IMG/VR virus record: IMGVR_UViG_3300047157_000049
Location: 1-47,567 of that record
Source: a virus
Reading direction: 5' to 3' (one strand)
Length of the DNA stretch: 47,567 nt
Shown here: positions 1-47,567 of the stretch, piece after piece
How positions within the stretch are numbered: the stretch's first letter is position 1
How the letters are laid out: each line of letters opens with the position of its first letter
Program-made: the position numbers and the translations under genes
Notes under the pieces: model-generated
Seen by the model: only the letters and a program-made list of their open reading frames with translations
The model's database searches: none
Told to the model about the DNA's origin: nothing

Positions 1-685
1 CTTTATTAAAACCAAACACTTGACCTTGAAACGCGCCCGATCTACCTACAGTACATAAGTCCTGTGAATAAGACATTATAGATGGAGCAATAGCAGAAGC
101 AGGAGGGGCTTCTGATTTTACGTTTTGGTTGATTGTTTGAGTTGAGTTCGACTCATTAATGTTTCTGTTCGTGTTGTCAGATTTTGAGTTGTTCTCATTA
201 ACATTCCTATTATCCGTTGTAACATTTGAATCCGACGTCGATTTATTGATATTCGTATTGTTGTTAGTGTTAGTGTTAGTGTTGTTAGAAGTGCTCGTAT
301 TGTTGACATTTTGATTTACCGTAGAATTAACAGTTGAGTTAGAAGTCGAAGTATTAACATTGTTGTTTGTGTTGGTGTTATTAGAAGTCGACGTATTTGT
401 ATTGGTGTTATTGTTGGTGTTTGTTGCCGTATTAATGTTTGTATTCTGATTGGTACTAACATTAGTATTTGTATTTACATTAGTATTTGTATTTACGTTG
501 GTATTGCTGTTGGTGTTATTATTGGTGTTAGTATTAGTATTGGTGTTATTTGTGGTGGTATTGTTAGTAGTATCCAAACTATTTTGCTCGCAATACTGAG
601 AGCCAGCAGTACAGTTACCTGTCTGATCCCCATAAGAATTAAAAGAAAATACCAATCCTAAAGCTAGAAGTGCACGTTTGTTCAT
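1..685 (-). CDS. Secreted Asn/Thr-rich low-complexity protein, 3' end cut by window
   Basis: An uninterrupted minus-strand frame runs from an ATG at 685 off the window edge (228 codons seen). Residues 1-19 look like a signal peptide: Lys-Arg, then a hydrophobic stretch, then a Ser/Tyr/Gly cleavage region. Next come a short Cys-containing segment, about 160 residues made almost only of Asn and Thr with Val, Ser and Ile in alternating patterns such as NTNVNTNTN, and a more complex end starting SYSQDLCTVG. From memory, marine phages carry proteins with this layout (signal peptide, low complexity, conserved Cys-containing end), with no function I can name. It starts 9 bases after the preceding small gene. 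I infer export to the periplasm or outer membrane, perhaps at lysis. The function is unknown. Confidence 0.75.
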   Translation of the reverse strand, partial: MNKRALLALGLVFSFNSYGDQTGNCTAGSQYCEQNSLDTTNNTTTNNTNTNTNTNNNTNSNTNVNTNTNVNTNTNVSTNQNTNINTATNTNNNTNTNTSTSNNTNTNNNVNTSTSNSTVNSTVNQNVNNTSTSNNTNTNTNNNTNINKSTSDSNVTTDNRNVNENNSKSDNTNRNINESNSTQTINQNVKSEAPPASAIAPSIMSYSQDLCTVGRSGAFQGQVFGFNK

Positions 686-10095: not shown

Positions 10096-11914
10096 TTATC
10101 CCTCTAGTGTCTCTATTCTTTTTGTTAAGGCTTCTATCTTATCGTCTGCTTCTTGTAATGCTCTTATTAAAGGTAATATAAACATCTCCCTTGAAACCAT
10201 TTGCATACCGTCAGTTTGTGTATGCCAACCTGCAAAGGTTGATACTCCTGCGTTGTCCAGAGCTGTTTTTACTTCTTGTGCAACCATTCCATGCATGACA
10301 ACATCTGTGTCTTGCGTGTTTTCTTCACTATAATCAATCCACTCTGTAGGAAAATCTGCGGAAGATTTCCACTTGTAGGTTACTGTCCTTAAATCATTAA
10401 TAAAGTCTAAACCTAAAGTGTCATTTTGTATGTTTTGTTTTTTTCTCTCGTCTGAAGATTGAGACCATGAACCGCTACTTGTAAAGTTTAGACTAACAGC
10501 ACTTCCGTTTTTACCTATAAATACTTTGTTATTGCCGTCTGCGTTTAAGTCTGGACCAATAACAATTCTGTTTGTACCTGCATTGTATTCTGCACCACCT
10601 GCCCCTCTGCCTATGTAAATATTATCTCCACCAGTTGTAAAAACATGTCCTGCTCCATAGCCAATACATACATTACCACTCCCTGTTGTAAGTGAGTCGC
10701 CTGCTGCTGAACCAACAAGAGTATTTGTAGTACAAGATGACATTGCTCGCCCTGAGCCATGCCCAATCACAGTGTTTCCATATCCTGTAGCGGTTGAATT
10801 GTCCATAGCATAACTGCCATAGACTGTATTTGAATAACCTGTTGTTATACTCATTCCTGCACGATAACCAAATGCTTCATTTGGGGTCCCAGTAGTCAAG
10901 TTGCGTAAAGACATGTAGCCAACCGCAGTATTGTCATTTGATGTGGTAGCTACAGACATTGAACCAGATCCAATAGCAACATTATGATTGCCTGTTGTAT
11001 TTGTTTTTAAAGGTTGTAGTTGAGCATTGTCATAAGTACCTATAGCAACATTTCCTGTTCCAGTAGTATTCGCAATCATTGCTGCTTGTCCTATCGCAAC
11101 ATTTTGACCTGTAGTGTTTGCTTTTAAGGCTAATTCACCTACAGCGACACTATAACTTCCTGTGGTATTTGCTTCTAAGGCTTGACTTCCTACTGCTGTA
11201 TTACTTATACCTGTTGTGTTTGATACTAGTGAACTTGTGCCTACAGCAGTATTAGCAGCACCAGTCGTGTTTGCTGTTAAAGCACTCCAACCCATTGCTA
11301 CATTGTTAGATGCTGTGGTGTTTGCTAATAAAGCTCCGTGACCCAACGCTGAATTTTTTGTACCTGTAGTAGTTGCTCCTAAAGCATGTTTTCCTATACC
11401 AGTATTAGAAGAACCACTAGTATTTGCATCACCTGCATTTGCTCCAACAAAAGTATTGTTATTACCTGTGGTTAATGCTGTTCCTGCGGCAAACCCTACT
11501 GCAACATTGTTATCAGCACTTGTTAAAGCTGCAAAAACATCTATCCCCAAACCTGTGTTGTAATTAGCTGCATCAATCGTGCCTGTAGCATCATCACCAA
11601 CCATGAATGGATGAAGTACCAAATGTTTTAAATGTAGGTCCACCTGCAGGAGCATCTTCCCAAGCAACTCCACTACCAGTGGATGTTAGAAGTTGACCGT
11701 CTGAACCTTGACCACCGTTTACTTTAAAGTTAACACCATCAATAATCGCTGCATCAACAAGTCCAGTGAATGTTCCTGTGCCTGCTACAGATAAAGTTCC
11801 TGCTACGGCAATATTAGTATCTAATTTAGCAGAGGTGATGGCATCATCCGCAATCGCTGCAGTGGTTACTGCATCGTCCGCTATAACTCTTGATGTGATC
11901 TTAGTGTTTGCCAT
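10096..11914 (-). CDS. Tail fibre with S74 chaperone domain; one frameshift
   Basis: Two frames join at 11606-11607, where one surplus base (minus strand ATTCATG for ATCATG) breaks a segment that is intact in the related fibre at 12215-14449. The joined protein has 605 residues: AKIADDA-type repeats; the block GVNFKVNGGQGSDGQ; about 15 repeats of a NTTGxxNxAxGxxAL type (YadA-head-like beta roll); and a C-terminal intramolecular chaperone/peptidase S74 domain starting at SDERKKQNI and including VMHGMVAQEVKTALDNAG. S74 domains trimerise the fibre and then cut themselves off using a Ser-Lys dyad, consistent with SDERKK here. Its start overlaps the upstream stop as TAATG. Confidence 0.75.
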
Positions 11915-12214: not shown

Positions 12215-14449
12215 TTATTCTCCTAGTTGTGATTTAAGTGTTTCAACTTCTGCTGAAAGTTCTTGTAATGCTTTTACTAGCATTGGTATTAAAGCACTTT
12301 CTGCAAGTTCTTGCTGTCCTGTTTCTCTTACATCCCACATTTTAAAGCCGTCTGCAATTTCAGTGTGGTTATCAATAACTTCTTTAACTTCTTGTGCAAT
12401 AAAACCATGATTAGTCGTAGAGTATTTATAAATCTCTGTAGAACCTTCTTTATATCCATGAAATTCTTTTGGTATATCTCCTTTATTTCTATAATTAAAA
12501 GTAACAGGTCTTAGGTCATTAATAAATGCTAAACCTACTGTAGAATCTGCAATGTCTTTTTTAACTCTTCTATCTGAGACTGTTGCCCAAGTAGCCGTTC
12601 CATGTGCTGCCCTTATATCAGAGCTTGATAAGCCAACAGTAGTATAATTTGTTTCGCTTTTAACACTAGACCCAAAAGCATTTCCATTTGTTGTATCAGT
12701 AGCCGTTCCACCACTAGCAGCTCCAACAAATGTATTATCAGACCCTGTGGCGTGTATAACTCCAGACCCCCCTGCTGAAGAACCAACAAATGTATTATTA
12801 TAACCAGTTGTATTTCCATATCCTGCAGAGTAACCAAGTCCTGTATTGCTTGCAGCGGTAGTGTTTCCACCTAAGGCATTTTGACCAACTGCAACATTGT
12901 ATAGACCTGTTGTGTTGGTTTCTAAAGCAATGTAACCAACCGCAACATTAGAAGATCCTGTATTATTAAACAGTGCGTTTGCACCCAAAGCTACATTTGA
13001 AGCACCTGTCGTATTTTTAAATAGTGCGTAAGTACCGATTCCTGTATTATGACTTCCTGATGTTAAATCAGGTAATGCGGAAAAACCGACAGCAACATTG
13101 TTATCTCCTGAAGTTAAATCTGCAAAAATATCTATGCCTAGACCTGTGTTGTAGTTAGCATTACTAATAGTCCCTGTTGCATTATCACCAACCATAATGG
13201 AATCTATACCAAAGGTTTTAAATGTTACGCCACCACCTGCTGCATCTTCCCAAGCTACTCCACTTCCTGTTGAAGTAAGCACCTGTCCATCGCTACCTTG
13301 ACCACCATTAACTTTGAAATTTGCGCCGTCAATAATCGCAGCATCAACCAAGCCTGTGAATGTAGCTGTTCCCCCAACATTAAGAGTTGTTGCCATATCT
13401 ACTGCACCATCAATGTCTACTACATCTAGATTGGTTGTACCATCTACATCTACATCACCTGAAATATCTAAGTTAGTAAATACTGAAGTTCCTACTGCTG
13501 TAATTGTTCCTGTAAAAGTTACATTTTCACTTGAATCAATAGTAATAGCTGTAGCATCTGCACTTGTGCTAATTGATGTGGCTGATTCTAAAACATCTGA
13601 TACCAAAGATTTCTTTAACGCACTGTCGGTTGCATCAAAAATCATAAAGTGATCCGCGCCTACAGCTGTAACTTGTGTTAAGCCTGACACGAAAGATGCC
13701 GGTAGAGTATTTACTTCTGTTTGAGTAAAGGTCATGACCTCTAAGATTGCACCGTTTGCTGGTGCGGTATCCATGGTTAAAGTTGTACCACTTACTGCAT
13801 AGTCTGTTTTTTGTTGGTAAACACCATCTAAAAATACCTGTGTATTGTTTTCATGTATTGGAGAAAGGCTTAGAGTAAAAGCTGTGGTACTGCCATTACA
13901 AGTAAATTGATTGTGGGCTAGGTTATTGCCTGAAACTAAATGCGATACATGGTAAACAATTACTTTACGACTGTTAGCAGGTGCAACATCTAAAGTAAGT
14001 GTAGTTCCTGATAGAGCAAAATCACCAGGGTTCTGGTAAACACCCTCAATAAATACAATTAAGTTGTCTTCACTTGCTGGTGCAACACTGAGCGTAAATG
14101 CAGTTGCACTACCATTACCTGTAAATGTATCAACAGTTAAGGTAGAAGAGACATCAGTCTTAACATCATCTAATAAAGCCGCAACGATTCTTAGTTCTGC
14201 TTTATCTCCAGAACTAAACGCCCGTGCAGTTGTATTATCATGGCCTCTAACTACGGTCAGTGTGTTACCACTTCTTGCTGTTACCTTTACGATCTCCTTG
14301 TTGGTAGTATCGTCAAAGGTTACATAGAAGTGATCACTACCTGTTATGGTAGGGAAAACAGAACCATCGGTTACAGCGATACTCGTGACGCTGCTATTGA
14401 TTCCTGCGGCAAGAGTTGTCGCTGCGTTGTTGGTAAACTTAACAGCCAT
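12215..14449 (-). CDS. Tail fibre with S74 chaperone domain
   Basis: The 744-residue protein starts after a good ribosome binding site (GGAG before ATG 14449). Residues 1-80 are an attachment-like domain (TNNAATTLAAGINSSVTSIA ... VVRGHDNTTARAFSSGD), followed by two related repeats of about 60 residues (FTGNGSATAFTLS, FTCNGSTTAFTLS), a linker, the NFKVNGGQGSDGQ block, about ten NTTGxxNxAxG beta-roll repeats, and a C-terminal S74 domain with VSDRRVKKDI, TNHGFIAQEV and a terminal coiled coil. The SDRRVKK motif has the expected Ser-Lys pair for self-cleavage. It is the longer, probably baseplate-attached of the two fibres. Confidence 0.85.
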   Translation of the reverse strand: MAVKFTNNAATTLAAGINSSVTSIAVTDGSVFPTITGSDHFYVTFDDTTNKEIVKVTARSGNTLTVVRGHDNTTARAFSSGDKAELRIVAALLDDVKTDVSSTLTVDTFTGNGSATAFTLSVAPASEDNLIVFIEGVYQNPGDFALSGTTLTLDVAPANSRKVIVYHVSHLVSGNNLAHNQFTCNGSTTAFTLSLSPIHENNTQVFLDGVYQQKTDYAVSGTTLTMDTAPANGAILEVMTFTQTEVNTLPASFVSGLTQVTAVGADHFMIFDATDSALKKSLVSDVLESATSISTSADATAITIDSSENVTFTGTITAVGTSVFTNLDISGDVDVDGTTNLDVVDIDGAVDMATTLNVGGTATFTGLVDAAIIDGANFKVNGGQGSDGQVLTSTGSGVAWEDAAGGGVTFKTFGIDSIMVGDNATGTISNANYNTGLGIDIFADLTSGDNNVAVGFSALPDLTSGSHNTGIGTYALFKNTTGASNVALGANALFNNTGSSNVAVGYIALETNTTGLYNVAVGQNALGGNTTAASNTGLGYSAGYGNTTGYNNTFVGSSAGGSGVIHATGSDNTFVGAASGGTATDTTNGNAFGSSVKSETNYTTVGLSSSDIRAAHGTATWATVSDRRVKKDIADSTVGLAFINDLRPVTFNYRNKGDIPKEFHGYKEGSTEIYKYSTTNHGFIAQEVKEVIDNHTEIADGFKMWDVRETGQQELAESALIPMLVKALQELSAEVETLKSQLGE

Positions 14450-27819: not shown

Positions 27820-28545
27820 TTATACTCCTAACCCTTGAACAGGGGGTGGAGCAATGTTCTGTCCATTCCTATCAAAGTTTGGGTTAATTAAATTTTTAGA
27901 TGAAATGCCACTAGATACACTATTTAAAAATAGTTGATAGTGTTGGCTAGCTCTTTGTGCATTACCTGCAAACTCAGAGTCTTTCATATAACATCTAAAC
28001 AAAACATAATCTACAAGGGCATTACCATAAATATCATCAATATAAATAGTACTACTTGTAGCACTTAAATCAGTAGGGCTTCTAGAAGTTATTAATTCTA
28101 CGTAAGCGTTTGATCCGGATTTTACACCCGGATACACATAAAACCTTCTTGGGTCATCTGGATCAAAAATATAATGTTTAATTACAGAACCATGAGCTGC
28201 ATCTCCTGTAACAGTAGGATCATGCCAATCAGGTTCTATAGAATTTAAAATGTCTTCATCTACTAGCCTAATTGATTTTTTACCTGTTGCACTGCCACCA
28301 GTAGCACTCATGTTGCGTACTACTTTTATTAAAGACAAAGCTACATCTGGTATAGATTGCTCTGTACCAGTAGCTAATTGTACGTTTGAATGATCAGCTG
28401 AAGCTTGAGGTTTAAAGTTAACTACTTCTCTTTGTGCATCATTTATGTACCTAAGCAATTCAGCTTCAGTCCATCGAACGCCAGTTGTATCCTGCAGGCT
28501 GTCCTGTATTCTGGATATTAAGTTAGCGCCCGTTAGTGTGCCCAT
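27820..28545 (-). CDS. Head-tail adaptor protein (DUF6682-like)
   Basis: The 241-residue protein starts MGTLTGANLISRIQDSLQDT, then GVRWTEAELLRYINDAQREV. The R....LQD......W....LL.YIND.QREV segment matches the start of the DUF6682/phage adaptor family, and PRRFYVYPGVKSGSNAYVEL fits the later strands. It would dock below the portal. Start overlaps the previous stop as TAATG (28543-28547). Located just downstream of the capsid gene cluster, as in other podoviruses. Confidence 0.7.
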   Translation of the reverse strand: MGTLTGANLISRIQDSLQDTTGVRWTEAELLRYINDAQREVVNFKPQASADHSNVQLATGTEQSIPDVALSLIKVVRNMSATGGSATGKKSIRLVDEDILNSIEPDWHDPTVTGDAAHGSVIKHYIFDPDDPRRFYVYPGVKSGSNAYVELITSRSPTDLSATSSTIYIDDIYGNALVDYVLFRCYMKDSEFAGNAQRASQHYQLFLNSVSSGISSKNLINPNFDRNGQNIAPPPVQGLGV

Positions 28546-28862
28546 TATTTCTTAGCGGTTTTCTTTACAGTTTTTTTAGCAGCCGGCTTTTTCTTAGCGG
28601 GTGCTTTACCATCTACATAGGCTTCGTTTATATCAGGTGTAGAGGGATCGTCAGGAATATAATGTCCTTTTTCATCTCTAGCTCTAATAGGTTCGCTTGG
28701 CTTTTTATCTTTAATTGAATGGGGTTTGTGTTCTGTACACCCCTCTTGCAAGCACAATAGGCCTATGTCTTGTCCAACTTCTTTTGGTACGCCAGCTTCC
28801 AGTCTGATTGATGCGCCCCAGGTGGTCGAAATATACCTGTCAATATCTGATATTACTATCAT
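28545..28862 (-). CDS. Small structural protein with Lys/Ala-rich tail (105 aa)
   Basis: The 105-residue protein has a small ordered N-terminus (DIDRYISTTWGASIRLEAGV, then Cys-containing LLCLQEGCTEH) and, from about residue 85, an AKKKPAAKKTVKKTAKK tail like a histone H1 tail. It lies between the capsid terminator and the adaptor gene. The tail could bind DNA at the connector or in the head; this is a guess. Not recognised. Confidence 0.6.
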   Translation of the reverse strand: MIVISDIDRYISTTWGASIRLEAGVPKEVGQDIGLLCLQEGCTEHKPHSIKDKKPSEPIRARDEKGHYIPDDPSTPDINEAYVDGKAPAKKKPAAKKTVKKTAKK

Positions 28863-28916: not shown

Positions 28917-30062
28917 TTAGTATGCAACATCCAATCTAATGACACCAAAGTCTTCAACGCCACTATTGTAGTCGCTGTTAAACTTAGGCTTCTTAAGACC
29001 GAAGATTTTACCAATGGAGATACCATTTTGGTTACCATAGTCGAAAGTATCTTCAACTATTTGTGGTAGACCAATATCTGCCATAGCAAGAGCTTGAGCT
29101 CCACAGAATAAACAAGCAGAACCGTTGATGTCAGCATCAGCTCCCCACTTGTATCCAGCAGAACCGGCGTTTGAAGATGTTCCAGTAAGTGCATTCTCTG
29201 TATTAAATACATGTCTGAACTCATGGACCATAACACCGTCAACCATTAGACTTGAAGAACCAGAGAACAAGCTCGATTGTGGTCCTCTTATTCCAGCATT
29301 TCTGACGTTAGCCAAGAAATCTGAATCAAGTTTAAGGTCAGCCATTACTTGAGGTGATACAAATAAATGATATACCTCATCTCCACCTGCGCCTCTTACT
29401 CCACGAATGTAGTTGTCTTTAGCATAAGCTTTAAGAGCAACAATACACTCATAAGTAATGGTGTCAGCTGCAACAGTAGCAGTTACGTCACCAGCAACAA
29501 GTTTACTAGTAGCATCCCATCTTCTATGTCTGTTAGAAGTTGGAGCTGTTACATCTGAACCAAAAACCATGTCGCCAAGATTTTGTCCTGAAGTCAGAAC
29601 AGGTCTCAAAGCACCACTGTTTTTGAGTGTGTAAGAAATACCAGAAAGCGTTAAGAACGCTAATTGGTCAATACGATCTGCCATTGCATAAGCAAGTGCA
29701 TCACGTGAGTTCTCACGGAAATTAACAACTGATTTTTGATCAGCTAATCTACCAGAAAGTCTGTTAGCAAATCTCAATTGATCGAGTTGTACAACAATGT
29801 CGTAGGCTCTTAAAGTCTCTTCATTACCTTCTAAAGTGTTGTCTCCAATGATACCGTCACCAGTCATGTCAGCTAAAAGTGTTAATACAGCTCTAGCTCC
29901 TTTTTCTGATTGAGTAAGTTCAGATATTCTCTGAACCATAGCATTAGATCCGCTACCTGCGAATTGGTTAATGAAAGACATATTCCTAGCGACACGCCAA
30001 AAATCACGAGACCAGATCGTTAATTGTTCGCTGGTCAACGCGCTAAAGTTTGTGTTAGCCAT
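28917..30062 (-). CDS. Major capsid protein (N4-gp56/DUF4043 family)
   Basis: The 381-residue protein starts MANTNFSALTSEQLTIWSRD. The segment RNMSFINQFAGSGSNAMVQR, then ELTQSEKGARAVLTLLADM, GDNTLEGNEE, SGRLADQKSVVNFRENSRD and DRIDQLAFLTLSGI are strong signatures of the N4-gp56/DUF4043 capsid family. ATG 30062 has GGAGG 8 bases upstream and follows a 208-base leader; the in-frame TTG at 30077 is not needed. It makes the icosahedral shell with the scaffold encoded just upstream. It has its own downstream terminator, suggesting high expression. Confidence 0.9.
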   Translation of the reverse strand: MANTNFSALTSEQLTIWSRDFWRVARNMSFINQFAGSGSNAMVQRISELTQSEKGARAVLTLLADMTGDGIIGDNTLEGNEETLRAYDIVVQLDQLRFANRLSGRLADQKSVVNFRENSRDALAYAMADRIDQLAFLTLSGISYTLKNSGALRPVLTSGQNLGDMVFGSDVTAPTSNRHRRWDATSKLVAGDVTATVAADTITYECIVALKAYAKDNYIRGVRGAGGDEVYHLFVSPQVMADLKLDSDFLANVRNAGIRGPQSSLFSGSSSLMVDGVMVHEFRHVFNTENALTGTSSNAGSAGYKWGADADINGSACLFCGAQALAMADIGLPQIVEDTFDYGNQNGISIGKIFGLKKPKFNSDYNSGVEDFGVIRLDVAY

Positions 30063-37113: not shown

Positions 37114-37476
37114 ATGACTTTTTACATTACAACACAATATCTTGAGAACTATGGAGCTCATAGAGATAACACTACTGGCAAATTTGCTGACGACCAAGCA
37201 CATTGGAAGTTTAAATTTGGAGACACTTATGCTGTCACTGGTTTAGATCGCATTCAAGACGCAGTTGCTTTTGTATGCGCTTTAACCATAGAAAATGGTT
37301 TAGGTATTAAAGAGTTTCCAACATCTTGGAAAACTTATCAGGAGCATCAAGAGTATCTTGCTTCTCTAACACCTGACTATGCAGAGTTTATAGAGGCTTC
37401 GATTTGGCATGTTAATCCCAGATCACCATCTCTAAGGTATAGAGATGAAGAGAATTACATGAAAGCTTGTATTTAA
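37114..37476 (+). CDS. Early hypothetical protein (120 aa)
   Basis: The 120-residue protein starts MTFYITTQYLENYGAHRDNT after AGGAG. It is a mixed alpha/beta protein with several aromatic residues, DAVAFVCALTIENGLGIKEF and SIWHVNPRSP. It has no signal peptide or membrane segment. It is the first gene of the early arm, 70 bp after the TGTTCCA array, and is followed by a strong terminator, so it is a one-gene unit, likely made immediately after infection. I do not recognise it; a host-takeover function is inference from position. Confidence 0.7.
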   Translation: MTFYITTQYLENYGAHRDNTTGKFADDQAHWKFKFGDTYAVTGLDRIQDAVAFVCALTIENGLGIKEFPTSWKTYQEHQEYLASLTPDYAEFIEASIWHVNPRSPSLRYRDEENYMKACI

Positions 37477-41413: not shown

Positions 41414-42437
41414 ATGAACAACATTAACCCAAACGATCTCAAATCAGAGATTAAAGATAACATCCGTACAGGACTTAACACCATGATATGGGGTGGGCCA
41501 GGTATCGGTAAGTCAGACATACCACAACAAGTGGCTGATGACTTAGATATACCATTGCTTGACTTTCGTGCCAACTTATTCGACCCAGTCGATGTGCGTG
41601 GCATACCTCACATCATGCAAGAACAAGAAACAGGGAAGCGTTTTACACGTTGGGCAGTGCCTGATGTGTTTCCTATTGCATCACGTGATGGCGAAACGGG
41701 AATTCTCTTCATCGACGAATTGCCAACTGCACCACCAGCTACGCAGAACGCTTTCCTGCAACTCTTGTTAACTCGACAAATTGGCGACTATGAAATGCCA
41801 GTTGGCTGGTCAATCGTTGCCGCAGGTAACAGACTGACTGACTCAGCTGCTGTCTTTCAAATGCCAACACCAGTACGTAATCGTTTATTGCATTACGAAC
41901 TTGAAGCAAGCATCGATGACTGGGTTGAGTGGGCTTTCAAAAACGGTATCAACTCAGAAGTTATTGGCTTCTTGCGTTACAGACCTGGCTTACTTAACAG
42001 TTTCAAAGCTGACGAGTATGCATTCCCAACACCACGTTCGTGGGCATTCGTTGACAAAAAAGCTATCCAATCGACCGTCGACCGCCAACGACGATACATT
42101 GTTCTTTGGTGTCGCAGCGACAGTCGGCGACGGCCCAGCTGGCGAGTTTGTTGCTTACAAACAAATAGCTGACAAGCTACAAGATGTCGACGAACTTATC
42201 AAAGACCCTGGTAAATACAAGAAAGATGACAACCCAGCTGTCTTGTATGCACTTTCAACATCTATCGCCACCCGAGCGAGTGATGACACTCTCGAAAATA
42301 TTATCAAAGTATGCAACAAACTCCCATCAGAGTTTCAAGTAATACTAATGAAAGGTATTTTTGCAATCAACAAAGACTTTATCAAGAATCAGTTTTGTAC
42401 TAAATGGATTCAAGATAATCACGGCTTATTATCATAG
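41414..42437 (+). CDS. MoxR-type AAA+ ATPase; one frameshift
   Basis: The raw frame breaks after residue 216 because of one extra A in the six-A run 42056-42061. Removing it gives 340 residues ending at 42437. Walker A is GPGIGKS (residues 28-34), Walker B ILFIDEL (97-103) and sensor 1 IVAAGNR, followed by PTPVRNRLLHYEL, the MoxR arrangement. After the break the C-terminal domain continues with FFGVAATVGDGPAGEF and YALSTSIATRASDD. MoxR ATPases remodel proteins together with von Willebrand A-like partners, and the DUF2201-type protein 1.4 kb downstream is the likely partner. GGAGG precedes ATG 41414. Confidence 0.85.
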
Positions 42438-43847: not shown

Positions 43848-44945
43848 ATGAGTCAAAATTTTACAAATGCACGCACACAACTTGTGCTCAACCAGCCATT
43901 CTTTGGCACCCTTTGTCTTCGCCTCAAACCCGTTGAACGTGATGACATGGATACGGGTGCCACAGATGGTGTGCATCTTTTCTATAATCCCAAATGGTTT
44001 GACAAATTGCAACCCTTAGAACGTATTGGTTTTCTTGCACACGAAGTTATGCATGTTGTGCTTATGCACATATTCCGTAGAGAAGAACGTCAACCACAAA
44101 AGTGGAACGTTGCGTGCGACTATGCAGAAAATTACTTACTCAAACAAGCTAACTTTATATTACCTAAAGGTGCCTTGCTTGATGAGCAATACGACGACAT
44201 GAATGCCGAAGAAATATACAACTTACTTCCTGAACCCGACGGTGGCTGGGAATCGTTGGCCGCTGACTTCGGTAATTGTGGCGCTGTGCTAGATCATCCT
44301 GGCACTGACGACGGTAGCATTGGTAAAGCTAAAGCAGAACTTACTGTTGCAATCAATCAAGCAGCAGAAAGTGCACGCAAAGCCGGCAAGCTACCTGGCT
44401 CACTAGAATCTATACTTGATGAAATTAAAGAACCTAAAGTGTGTTGGAAACAAGTACTTGCTAGGTTCTTGCGTTCTAACAACACAGACGACTTTAGTTG
44501 GCAAAAACCAAACCGTCGTTTCATTGGCCAAGGCTTGTATCTACCTTCTATGTACAACCCATCTATTGATGAAATTGCAGTTGTGTCTGACACATCATGT
44601 TCTAGAACTGACGAAGAACTAAATCAAGATCTTGCAGAAATTTCTTCTATTATTCTTGATGTCAATCCTAACAAAGTTCATTTTGTAGAAGTTGACACTG
44701 AAGTACAAAATTATACTGAGTACACACGCGAGTCTCTTCCTCTTAAAACAACTATGACTGGTAGAGGTGGAACTTGTTTCTCACCTGGCATTGAGTACAT
44801 AAATGAAAATTATCCAAATGTTAGTGCTTTGATCTATCTTACAGATCTTGGTTCTAACGACTTTGGAGACAGACCAAGTTATCCGGTCTTGTGGATAACA
44901 ACACACGAAGGAGAAGCACCTTATGGTGAAATCATCAAAATTTAA
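43848..44945 (+). CDS. DUF2201-type metallopeptidase with VWA-like domain
   Basis: The 365-residue protein has FLAHEVMHVVLMH (HExxH, residues 65-69) typical of the N-terminal DUF2201 putative metallopeptidase, with GVHLFYNPKWFDKL before it and CDYAENYLL after it. From about residue 240 a VWA-like domain follows: IAVVSDTSCSRTDEEL (DxSxS MIDAS at 248-252), MTGRGGTCFSPGIEYI and ALIYLTDLGS. Such proteins are encoded beside MoxR ATPases in bacteria. Zinc and MIDAS residues are kept, so activity is likely. The substrate is unknown. AGGAG precedes ATG 43848. Confidence 0.85.
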   Translation: MSQNFTNARTQLVLNQPFFGTLCLRLKPVERDDMDTGATDGVHLFYNPKWFDKLQPLERIGFLAHEVMHVVLMHIFRREERQPQKWNVACDYAENYLLKQANFILPKGALLDEQYDDMNAEEIYNLLPEPDGGWESLAADFGNCGAVLDHPGTDDGSIGKAKAELTVAINQAAESARKAGKLPGSLESILDEIKEPKVCWKQVLARFLRSNNTDDFSWQKPNRRFIGQGLYLPSMYNPSIDEIAVVSDTSCSRTDEELNQDLAEISSIILDVNPNKVHFVEVDTEVQNYTEYTRESLPLKTTMTGRGGTCFSPGIEYINENYPNVSALIYLTDLGSNDFGDRPSYPVLWITTHEGEAPYGEIIKI

Positions 44946-46374: not shown

Positions 46375-46596
46375 ATGGGAGCTATGAAACGTTGGATGCA
46401 TGACGTGCATGACGATTGCTTATCTATGGGTGTTCGTAACACTGCTAAAAAGTATGACATTTCTGCTGACGATGTTAAAACTGCAACTATGAATCATGCA
46501 GGTTGGAATAAAACTTGGTCTGAGTTTGTTATAGAAAATAATATAAAACAAACAATGGCTAATGCAAATGAAGCAGCAAAAAAAAGGGGCCTATAA
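46375..46596 (+). CDS. Small DNA-binding-like early protein (73 aa)
   Basis: The 73-residue protein starts MGAMKRWMHDVHDDCLSMGV. The segment CLSMGVRNTAKKYDISADDV looks like a helix-turn-helix (helix, turn, recognition helix) of homeodomain-like type. It lies 2 bases after paralogue B and ends before a bidirectional hairpin. May be a transcription regulator; the HTH is my reading of the sequence pattern. Confidence 0.6.
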   Translation: MGAMKRWMHDVHDDCLSMGVRNTAKKYDISADDVKTATMNHAGWNKTWSEFVIENNIKQTMANANEAAKKRGL

Positions 46597-46606
46597 AGAC
46601 CCCTTT
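46575..46606 (-). terminator. Terminator for the minus-strand decoration gene (bidirectional)
   Basis: AAAGGGG/CCCCTTT pair (46583-46589 with 46600-46606). On the minus strand it is followed by an eight-T run (bases 46589 downward), an ideal intrinsic terminator 15 bases after the decoration gene. On the plus strand the T-run is only TTTAAGATTT, so it is weaker for the early genes. Confidence 0.8.
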
Positions 46607-46620
46607 AAGATTTGCTTAAC

Positions 46621-47031
46621 TTACGATACGTAAATCCACATTTCTAATGTGCCAGTTGCAACATCACCTGCAGGTGCTACTTGACAAGTAATGTCAATAG
46701 TATCATCTGAACTATAGGCAATAGGTGCAAGGTTTGCATCTTCATGGTCTATACCACCGGCTTGGCCGATTGTAGAACCATCAATAAATCTATCTGAATC
46801 TGTACCATCACCGACGTCAAGTACTAGACCTGAGCCTGTGTCTAAATCAGAAGATTTGATTTTGATGTCATGTAAAGTTTCACCAGCAAAGATATCTACC
46901 ATTTGGTATACATCAGCAGCATTTGGTGCAGCAGTTACATTAAACTTAGCATATCTTACGCCAATCGCACCACTAGGAAATGGTTTGAATGATTGATTGC
47001 CTGAAACAGGATCACTTGTAAAAGTTGCCAT
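46621..47031 (-). CDS. Decoration/virion surface-type protein, stand-alone
   Basis: ATG 47031 is chosen because AGGTG lies 7 bases upstream. The 136-residue protein starts MATFTSDPVSGNQSFKPFPS, has NVTAAPNAADVYQMVDIFAG, GSGLVLDVGDGTDSDRFIDG and APAGDVATGTLEMWIYVS, and is all beta with a compact fold. I recall this pattern (T.A.DV.Q..DI.AG......, LDVGDGTD..RF) from capsid decoration and other abundant structural proteins of marine phages. It is alone on the minus strand among early genes, with its own promoter and terminator. Late expression is expected but the promoter looks like a host sigma70 site. Confidence 0.65.
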   Translation of the reverse strand: MATFTSDPVSGNQSFKPFPSGAIGVRYAKFNVTAAPNAADVYQMVDIFAGETLHDIKIKSSDLDTGSGLVLDVGDGTDSDRFIDGSTIGQAGGIDHEDANLAPIAYSSDDTIDITCQVAPAGDVATGTLEMWIYVS

Positions 47032-47079
47032 ATTTTCACCTTTATTGTTATATAACACTTAATTGTGTCATACTTAAAA

Positions 47080-47107
47080 AACATAAAGCATTCAGGATGA
47101 ATGTCAA
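47080..47107 (-). promoter_or_regulatory. Sigma70-like promoter of the decoration gene
   Basis: On the minus strand TTGACA (47107-47102), 16-base spacer, TATGTT (47085-47080). The -35 is a full match, the -10 has four of six. Transcription would start near 47073, giving a leader of about 42 bases. It is the clearest promoter in the window and lies inside the gap between the divergent 70-residue gene and the decoration gene. Confidence 0.65.
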
Positions 47108-47116
47108 CTGTAAATT

Positions 47117-47329
47117 ATGGATAATCGAATCTACGTAAAACGTAATCCCTTAGCCTATTATCGGTACAACACTCCTGAACATCTTCCCTATATACAGTGG
47201 AGGTTGGTCAGCAAAGGTGTTGCCTACAATATGGTCCACAGTAAACAAGTTGGATGGGAGCGTGCAAAAAAGGGGGAGTATGAGGACTGGTGTGTTCGCA
47301 TGGAAAAATTAAGAAAGGAAAACTTATGA
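47117..47329 (+). CDS. Small early protein upstream of DNA polymerase (70 aa)
   Basis: The 70-residue basic protein starts MDNRIYVKRNPLAYYRYNTP, then EHLPYIQWRLVSKGVAYNMV and ERAKKGEYEDWCVRMEKLRK. Aromatic and basic residues dominate; no membrane segment. The stop overlaps the polymerase start (ATGA), so they are coupled. I recall similar short proteins in front of the polymerase of marine phages, with no known function. No strong ribosome binding site precedes it. Confidence 0.6.
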   Translation: MDNRIYVKRNPLAYYRYNTPEHLPYIQWRLVSKGVAYNMVHSKQVGWERAKKGEYEDWCVRMEKLRKENL

Positions 47330-47567
47330 ATTTATTATACTTAGACTTTGAAACTTACTACGACGTACAATTGTCCCTGACTAAAATGACAACTGTACAA
47401 TACGTTAACCACCCTGATTTTAAAATATGGGGAGTAGGTTTAAAATTTAATGAGGGAGATACAGAGTGGTTTGGAGAAGACCAATACCAAGATGCTCTTG
47501 AACAAATACCCTGGGAAGAAACCGCAGTTGTATGTCACAACACTTTGTTTGATGCTTACATACTTAC
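47326..47567 (+). CDS. Family A DNA polymerase, N-terminal exonuclease part (3' end cut)
   Basis: The first 80 residues are in the window. LYLDFET (Exo I, D..E) near residues 4-10 and VVCHNTLFDAYIL (Exo II, N..F/D) near 68-80 are the 3'-5' exonuclease motifs of family A (PolI-like) phage polymerases. The spacing is normal for this group. The polymerase domain lies outside the window. It would copy the phage genome and proofread. AAGGAAAAC precedes the ATG. Confidence 0.8.
   Translation, partial: MNLLYLDFETYYDVQLSLTKMTTVQYVNHPDFKIWGVGLKFNEGDTEWFGEDQYQDALEQIPWEETAVVCHNTLFDAYIL

Follow-up and report, generated by a model that had tools for sequence, protein, structure and literature searches.

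The DEC gene very probably encodes a capsid cement (decoration) protein, judging by its predicted structure and by sequence profiles. It lies within the early (replication) arm of a phage genome, far from the gene of the major capsid protein (MCP). The window, i.e. the whole stretch of viral DNA that was analysed, comprises 47,567 nucleotides. We consider it likely that DEC is the head cement of a podophage, that its gene, formerly in the slot behind the MCP gene, came to lie in the early arm, where it would form a unit of its own, and that its coding sequence was repeatedly swapped within a frame that was kept.

Position of the DEC gene

The DEC reading frame codes for 136 amino acids. The ORF list gave a GTG-started version of 145 amino acids, but the start kept across relatives is the ATG (Table 1). 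All other genes from position 37114 to the end of the window were on the plus strand, which bears out the initial annotation of a lone opposite-strand gene in the early arm. The same annotation had placed the gene between early genes and the DNA polymerase; the location in the early arm was correct, but a plus-strand gene of 70 amino acids, e70, intervenes before the polymerase start. The DEC homologue was likewise the sole sizeable minus-strand ORF within the replication arm of G030 (58.9 kb) and G029 (56.6 kb), two relatives of nearly full length.

Table 1. Features of the DEC region and the MCP region (positions in the window)
Feature	Position	Strand	Basis
DEC, predicted cement (decoration) protein gene, ATG at 47031	46621..47031, stop included	-	ORF list, conserved start, fold, profile matches
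e73, early gene of 73 aa, convergent with DEC	46375..46596	+	ORF list
e70, divergent partner gene of 70 aa	47117..47329	+	adjoins DEC wherever found
DNA polymerase, truncated by the window end shortly after its start	47326..47567	+	phrog_17 DNA polymerase
MCP, presumed binding partner of DEC, about 17 kb from DEC	28917..30062	-	phrog_334; PF13252
Gene of 105 aa in the slot after MCP, without cement-like match	28545..28862	-	PHROGs and Pfam searches; cement profile search
Predicted DEC promoter: -35 TTGACA (47107-47102), 16-nt spacer, -10 TATGTT (47085-47080)	47080..47107	-	sequence and conservation
Inverted repeat within the promoter spacer, CATTC-ATCCT-GAATG	47086..47105	-	mean best stem versus shuffles
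Imperfect inverted repeat TATGACACAATTAAGTGTTATA near the presumed mRNA 5' end	47051..47072	-	sequence and relatives
Predicted ribosome-binding site AAAGGTG	47037..47043	-	sequence
Predicted intrinsic terminator, 10-bp stem and T run	46578..46606	-	sequence; same in closest relatives

Several other features of the window were recorded. An ORF at 2-685 (-), cut by the window end, consists mostly of Asn/Thr repeats after a signal-peptide-like start. Two adjacent tail-type proteins, encoded at 10096-11673 and 12215-14449 (-), have similar repeat stretches and C-terminal ends, and a Peptidase_S74 chaperone domain was confirmed in the second. The plus strand carries a gene pair of an AAA-type ATPase and phrog_1314 (43848-44945 and 41414-42172); N4-like phages often carry relatives of phrog_1314, and in Roseobacter phage CRP-7 one such relative adjoins other early genes.

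A search of bacterial genomes for a host gave one match, PBPT01000002.1 (locus L397), which is filed under a Neomarinimicrobiota MAG and contains the early arm of a window-clade phage. The record probably reflects misbinning or else hints at a host. As the sole bacterial match carries the clade's own phage genes, no host was proposed.

The slot after the MCP gene

Cement genes usually lie directly after the MCP gene (MCP+1), as in Pam5 and BcepMigl; DEC does not. A cement-like gene was present at MCP+1 in 64 of 71 KPP25-like environmental loci versus none of 72 window-like loci. The MCP+1 protein of phiA008 was also examined as a cement candidate and does not resemble one.

In one relative, L366, the MCP+1 product matched the DEC profile with an E value of 1.9e-38, and its gene is separated from the MCP gene by only 15 nt. 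The MCP of L366 groups with the window clade with good support (99 in one tree, 100/98 in another), so that a near relative carries the DEC family at MCP+1 and the window carries it in the early arm. The MCP tree gave no firm branching order among L366, the group of G084, G088 and G078, and the window clade. In four relatives, G078, G084, G088 and G090 (MCP 65 to 75% identical; G090 63.7 kb), neither an MCP+1 cement nor DEC was detected, which counts against inferring a relocation in one step.

Presence of DEC among relatives

DEC was present at all 35 loci that were found via the neighbouring e70. Relatives were also anchored on the polymerase. Near ones, with at least 61% identity in that gene and over 1.2 kb of sequence upstream of it, numbered 31, of which 29 carried DEC beside the polymerase, antisense in every case. 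DEC was found at this site in none of 36 distant relatives (polymerase less than 57% identical). The two closer relatives without DEC at the polymerase site were L460 and L449. In L460 and L413 other small genes lie between e73 and the polymerase, and both DEC and e70 are absent there. In G073 the two genes had moved together to the distal end of the early arm, at a distance of about 8 kb. The position is thus not fixed in all relatives; it was a fixed position, with late-only transcription and no promoter activity, that the initial annotation had named as evidence against a moron-like gene.

At the DEC-less site of L460 (3154-3303) and L413 (265-414) an ORF of 49 amino acids with a zinc ribbon was seen, which by eye resembles the N-terminus of NrdR.

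The closest copies of DEC differed mainly in synonymous codons, and the protein is therefore maintained. The GC content of DEC is 40.2% versus 39.0% for the genome, so that a foreign base composition, as looked for in a moron, was not found. Based on this genome-like composition and the counts among near relatives, DEC appears to be an old resident, and its presence varies mostly at greater divergence; a recent insertion of erratic occurrence is not supported. The proposed moron arrangement therefore holds for the gene's own predicted promoter and terminator and finds no support as to the erratic recent insertion. A true moron, that is, a cement gene from another phage which entered the early arm after loss of the MCP+1 copy and which, being dispensable, comes and goes, is unlikely. 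The transcription signals of DEC would fit such a gene, as would the absence of DEC and e70 between e73 and the polymerase in L460 and L413, the displaced pair in G073 and the four relatives in which neither copy was detected, but the regular presence beside the polymerase, the conserved antisense orientation and promoter, the ordinary GC content and the mainly synonymous changes argue against it.

Promoter, repeats and terminator

The predicted DEC promoter agrees with the sigma70 consensus at 10 of 12 positions. A consensus scan of the window gave 9 promoter-like sites versus 7.9 +/- 2.8 expected, and 1 terminator versus 1.0 expected; as shuffled sequence yields similar numbers, the scan alone proves little. 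It is the conservation across relatives which settles the promoter assignment at the sequence level. TTGAC was found in all 65 distinct upstream regions of relatives, 74 to 79 nt from the ATG in 63 of them, with either TATRNN or TAAAAC 16 to 17 nt further on. In most relatives the last T of the -10 hexamer is missing. The gene's own near-consensus sigma70 promoter, as initially annotated, was thereby borne out as a predicted element. A search of the window for further copies of the motif (regulon search, up to 2 mismatches) gave 4 matches versus 2.65 expected, with the DEC site as the only exact one. A search for a T7-type RNA polymerase, which bears on the question of whether late genes use a phage polymerase, gave no match in the window or in the control genomes.

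The arms of the inverted repeat in the promoter spacer covary between lineages (GACAAAA/TTTTGTC, GACTTTT/AAAAGTC, GACATT/AATGTC and CATTC/GAATG). Among 11 representatives that were less than 75% similar, the best stems averaged 5.0 versus 3.1 in shuffled sequences, and none of 2000 shuffles reached 5.0. For the second repeat, located after the -10 hexamer, the stem was 5.75 versus 4.73 in shuffles of the relatives, with none of 500 shuffles as high. The spacer repeat is a putative operator, and the second repeat may form a hairpin at the 5' end of the DEC mRNA. It seems rather improbable that the spacer repeat acts in the RNA of the early strand as a hairpin before e70 and not in the DEC promoter. 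An RNA hairpin would also give covarying arms, and in some relatives the early-strand sequence of the loop is AGGA, but the distance between TTGAC and TATRNN is kept constant, which a DEC-strand promoter requires.

The stem of the predicted terminator extends from 46606 to 46583, and the structure overlaps the last codons of e73. The T run amounts to eight when the last three T of the stem are included, in agreement with the initial annotation, and the closest relatives have the same terminator. Over all relatives, 66 distinct downstream regions were compared; by the same criteria, 29 contain a U-run terminator and 37 do not.

A conserved two-hairpin element, GCATAGCCCAAG..CTTGGGCTATACTAATGCCACTCCTTGGCAT, was observed downstream of DEC in 44 of 106 flanks, e.g. 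in L093 from about 8412, directly after the DEC stop codon. Paired stem changes occur in L124, L144 and L152, and AGGAG is the early-strand sequence of the second loop. An Rfam search of the 3' hairpins after DEC gave no family at the gathering score.

The model of the e70 product was confident (pLDDT 89) and gave no PDB fold match. As a known DNA-binding fold it was rejected, with no Foldseek match at E 0.001 and a best VIA Z of 4.5. The e70 product may have a regulatory role at the promoter repeat or may aid DEC.

Nature of the DEC product

The AlphaFold2 model of DEC (pLDDT 88) is all-beta, as expected from the initial annotation of a beta-rich gene. The model matched the GP4 cement protein (8h89_J) with a Z score of 16.8 and an rmsd of 2.4 over 133 residues, and the Pam1 cement protein (7eel_H) with a Z score of 15.6. 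The cement proteins of KHP30 and KHP40 ranked next by fold (Z 10 to 11), so that the four top PDB matches were all capsid cement proteins; the remaining matches had Z scores of 9 and below.

A profile of 36 DEC relatives reached E 1.3e-9 with the Pam1 cement and 7.6e-7 with the GP4 cement, and DEC was 31% identical to the 'cement protein' of Pam5. Conversely, DEC was the top match in all three genomes compared with an MCP+1 profile from which DEC-like rows had been removed (E 1e-4 to 0.02). Only DEC gave a significant match to either cement profile within the window. The comparison of the DEC profile with three MCP+1 proteins (KPP25, AP1 and ctwe8250) was not significant, whereas larger (63 sequences) and reduced (55 sequences) MCP+1 profiles did link DEC. 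The MCP family of the window phage was present in all 12 searched DEC-bearing contigs of at least 40 kb. Searches of general collections gave little: no family for DEC in Pfam, a weak match to phrog_8455 (virion structural protein, E 0.0029) in PHROGs, and no match in a close DNA search of phage records.

The proposal that the product may be a virion surface protein is thus supported as to type by the modelled fold and the profile matches. That DEC is another beta-sandwich virion protein of the same fold, such as a tail or fibre head protein or an adhesin, is very unlikely: the fold is common and the fold lists include tail-fibre and lectin domains, but the best matches were all cements, at Z 10 to 17 versus 9 and below, and a DEC homologue occupies the MCP+1 position in L366.

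Exchange of DEC alleles

Relative to the window, L006 showed 94% nucleotide identity in DEC and 68% in the polymerase, while L053 showed 72% in DEC and 82% in the polymerase. In the pair L103/L075 both flanks were mostly 83 to 100% identical and DEC only 56 to 73%. The promoters of these two are identical at every base from -35 to -10, and identity drops from about the ribosome-binding site to just beyond the stop codon. The pair L095/L093 showed the reverse, with 91 to 100% identity over most of DEC and mostly less than 70% outside. In L091/L101 and L128/L099 the switch in identity falls inside DEC. Third-position identity tracks the exchanged block.

The DEC tree rejected the polymerase clade of L090-L092, L095, L096, L101, L125, L149 and L157 (lnL difference 188, p-AU 3.5e-50); this clade, which was fully supported in the polymerase tree, was chosen for the test after the identity table had revealed the conflict. 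Over 18 genomes the Mantel correlation (Spearman) was 0.69 for MCP and polymerase, but 0.21 for DEC and MCP and 0.19 for DEC and polymerase. The distances of MCP and polymerase agree even though these genes are situated in opposite arms. Four control genes correlated with the polymerase at 0.56 to 0.69 versus 0.20 for DEC. Pairs of phages with 95 to 96% identical MCPs had cement proteins that were only 64% identical.

These comparisons showed, as far as trees, distances and breakpoints can, that the DEC coding sequence was replaced between lineages, nearly exactly from start to stop and independently of polymerase and MCP. The initial suggestion of acquisition independent of the head genes therefore holds for alleles, as the DEC tree and distances conflict with those of MCP and polymerase, and does not hold for a recent insertion of the gene. 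DEC is short (408 nt) and many of the metagenome contigs are fragmentary; assembly chimeras could create some of the mosaics, but the pattern recurs in several contigs. That unequal rates or chimeric assembly and not recombination caused the discordant trees, as the short gene and the metagenome contigs might suggest, is highly improbable, since identity changes abruptly at the gene borders with concordant flanks, in both directions and in several contigs, third positions follow the exchanged block, and the conflict is less pronounced in four further genes from these loci. No report of single-gene exchange of cement alleles was found in a limited literature search.

Proposed role and significance

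By fold and by homology to the GP4 and Pam1 proteins, DEC would be located on the virion, where trimers at the three-fold and quasi-three-fold sites would sit outside the HK97-type shell and lock the capsomers. The gene was presumably once located in the usual slot behind MCP and is found in the early arm in the window clade; the route may have been relocation or loss and regain. At the sequence level DEC appears as a one-gene transcription unit in late orientation with its own sigma70-type promoter and terminator. The separate promoter would allow large amounts of DEC to be made outside the late operon, and expression would be late and high. The swaps, which are evident from the trees, distances and breakpoints, may have occurred by homologous recombination anchored in the conserved regulatory frame, so that cement alleles would circulate unlinked to either the early arm or the capsid protein. 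The swaps probably persist through selection on the outer face of the head, which is the weakest step of this proposal.

A more far-reaching reading is put forward tentatively. The cement gene, uncoupled from the head operon, might be a plug-in allele site, i.e. a conserved promoter region of the early arm, common to the cement gene and a dedicated divergent partner gene, into which single genes are swapped. Cement alleles would be exchanged with the MCP near constant, owing to diversifying selection on the exposed surface of the head.

Head genes are commonly regarded as one co-inherited block. Here, the gene of a protein predicted to bind where capsomers join lies in the replication arm, and its alleles move between lineages independently of the shell. 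This makes it possible to test how tolerant cement-shell recognition is and what selects for variants of the outer head in marine phages. It also calls for caution in classifying fragments by decoration genes.

Comparison with known systems

Morons of temperate phages are single genes on the opposite strand with their own promoter and terminator. DEC resembles them in this arrangement and differs from them in its conserved place among near relatives, its genome-like composition and its predicted structural role.

Virion genes that lie in reverse orientation within a replication module have a precedent in the N4-like Pseudomonas phages LIT1 and LUZ7 (PMC3715699). In LIT1, PEV2 and LUZ7 a whole cluster of tail genes is concerned, in contrast to one cement gene here, and no exchange of alleles is described in the passages concerned. 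N4 gp17 is an Ig-like head decoration protein (PMC11768535). In the N4 gene order its gene, like DEC, lies far from the MCP gene among early and middle genes. Unlike DEC, gp17 has 279 amino acids and three Ig domains and is encoded on the same strand as its neighbours. The DEC profile gave no match in the N4 genome at E 10, so that homology to gp17 was not found.

The cements of the cyanophages Pam1 (7eel) and Pam5 resemble DEC, the former in fold and both in sequence. The Pam5 cement gene is located at MCP+1 on the late strand, and DEC lies some 17 kb from MCP within the early arm. The BcepMigl cement gene, which is related to that of GP4, also directly follows MCP. The closest structural counterpart by Z score is the cement protein gp1 of the Ralstonia phage GP4 (PDB 8h89), which shares the fold of DEC over nearly the whole chain; GP4 is a podophage. 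GP4 gp1 has 157 amino acids, belongs to a T=9 shell and is 23% identical to DEC. It forms 180 trimers on the capsid, which occupy the quasi-three-fold sites and strengthen the head (PMC9698820). As both an Ig-like/jelly-roll cement fold and detectable sequence homology were found, DEC is filed with the cement proteins of Pam1 and GP4.
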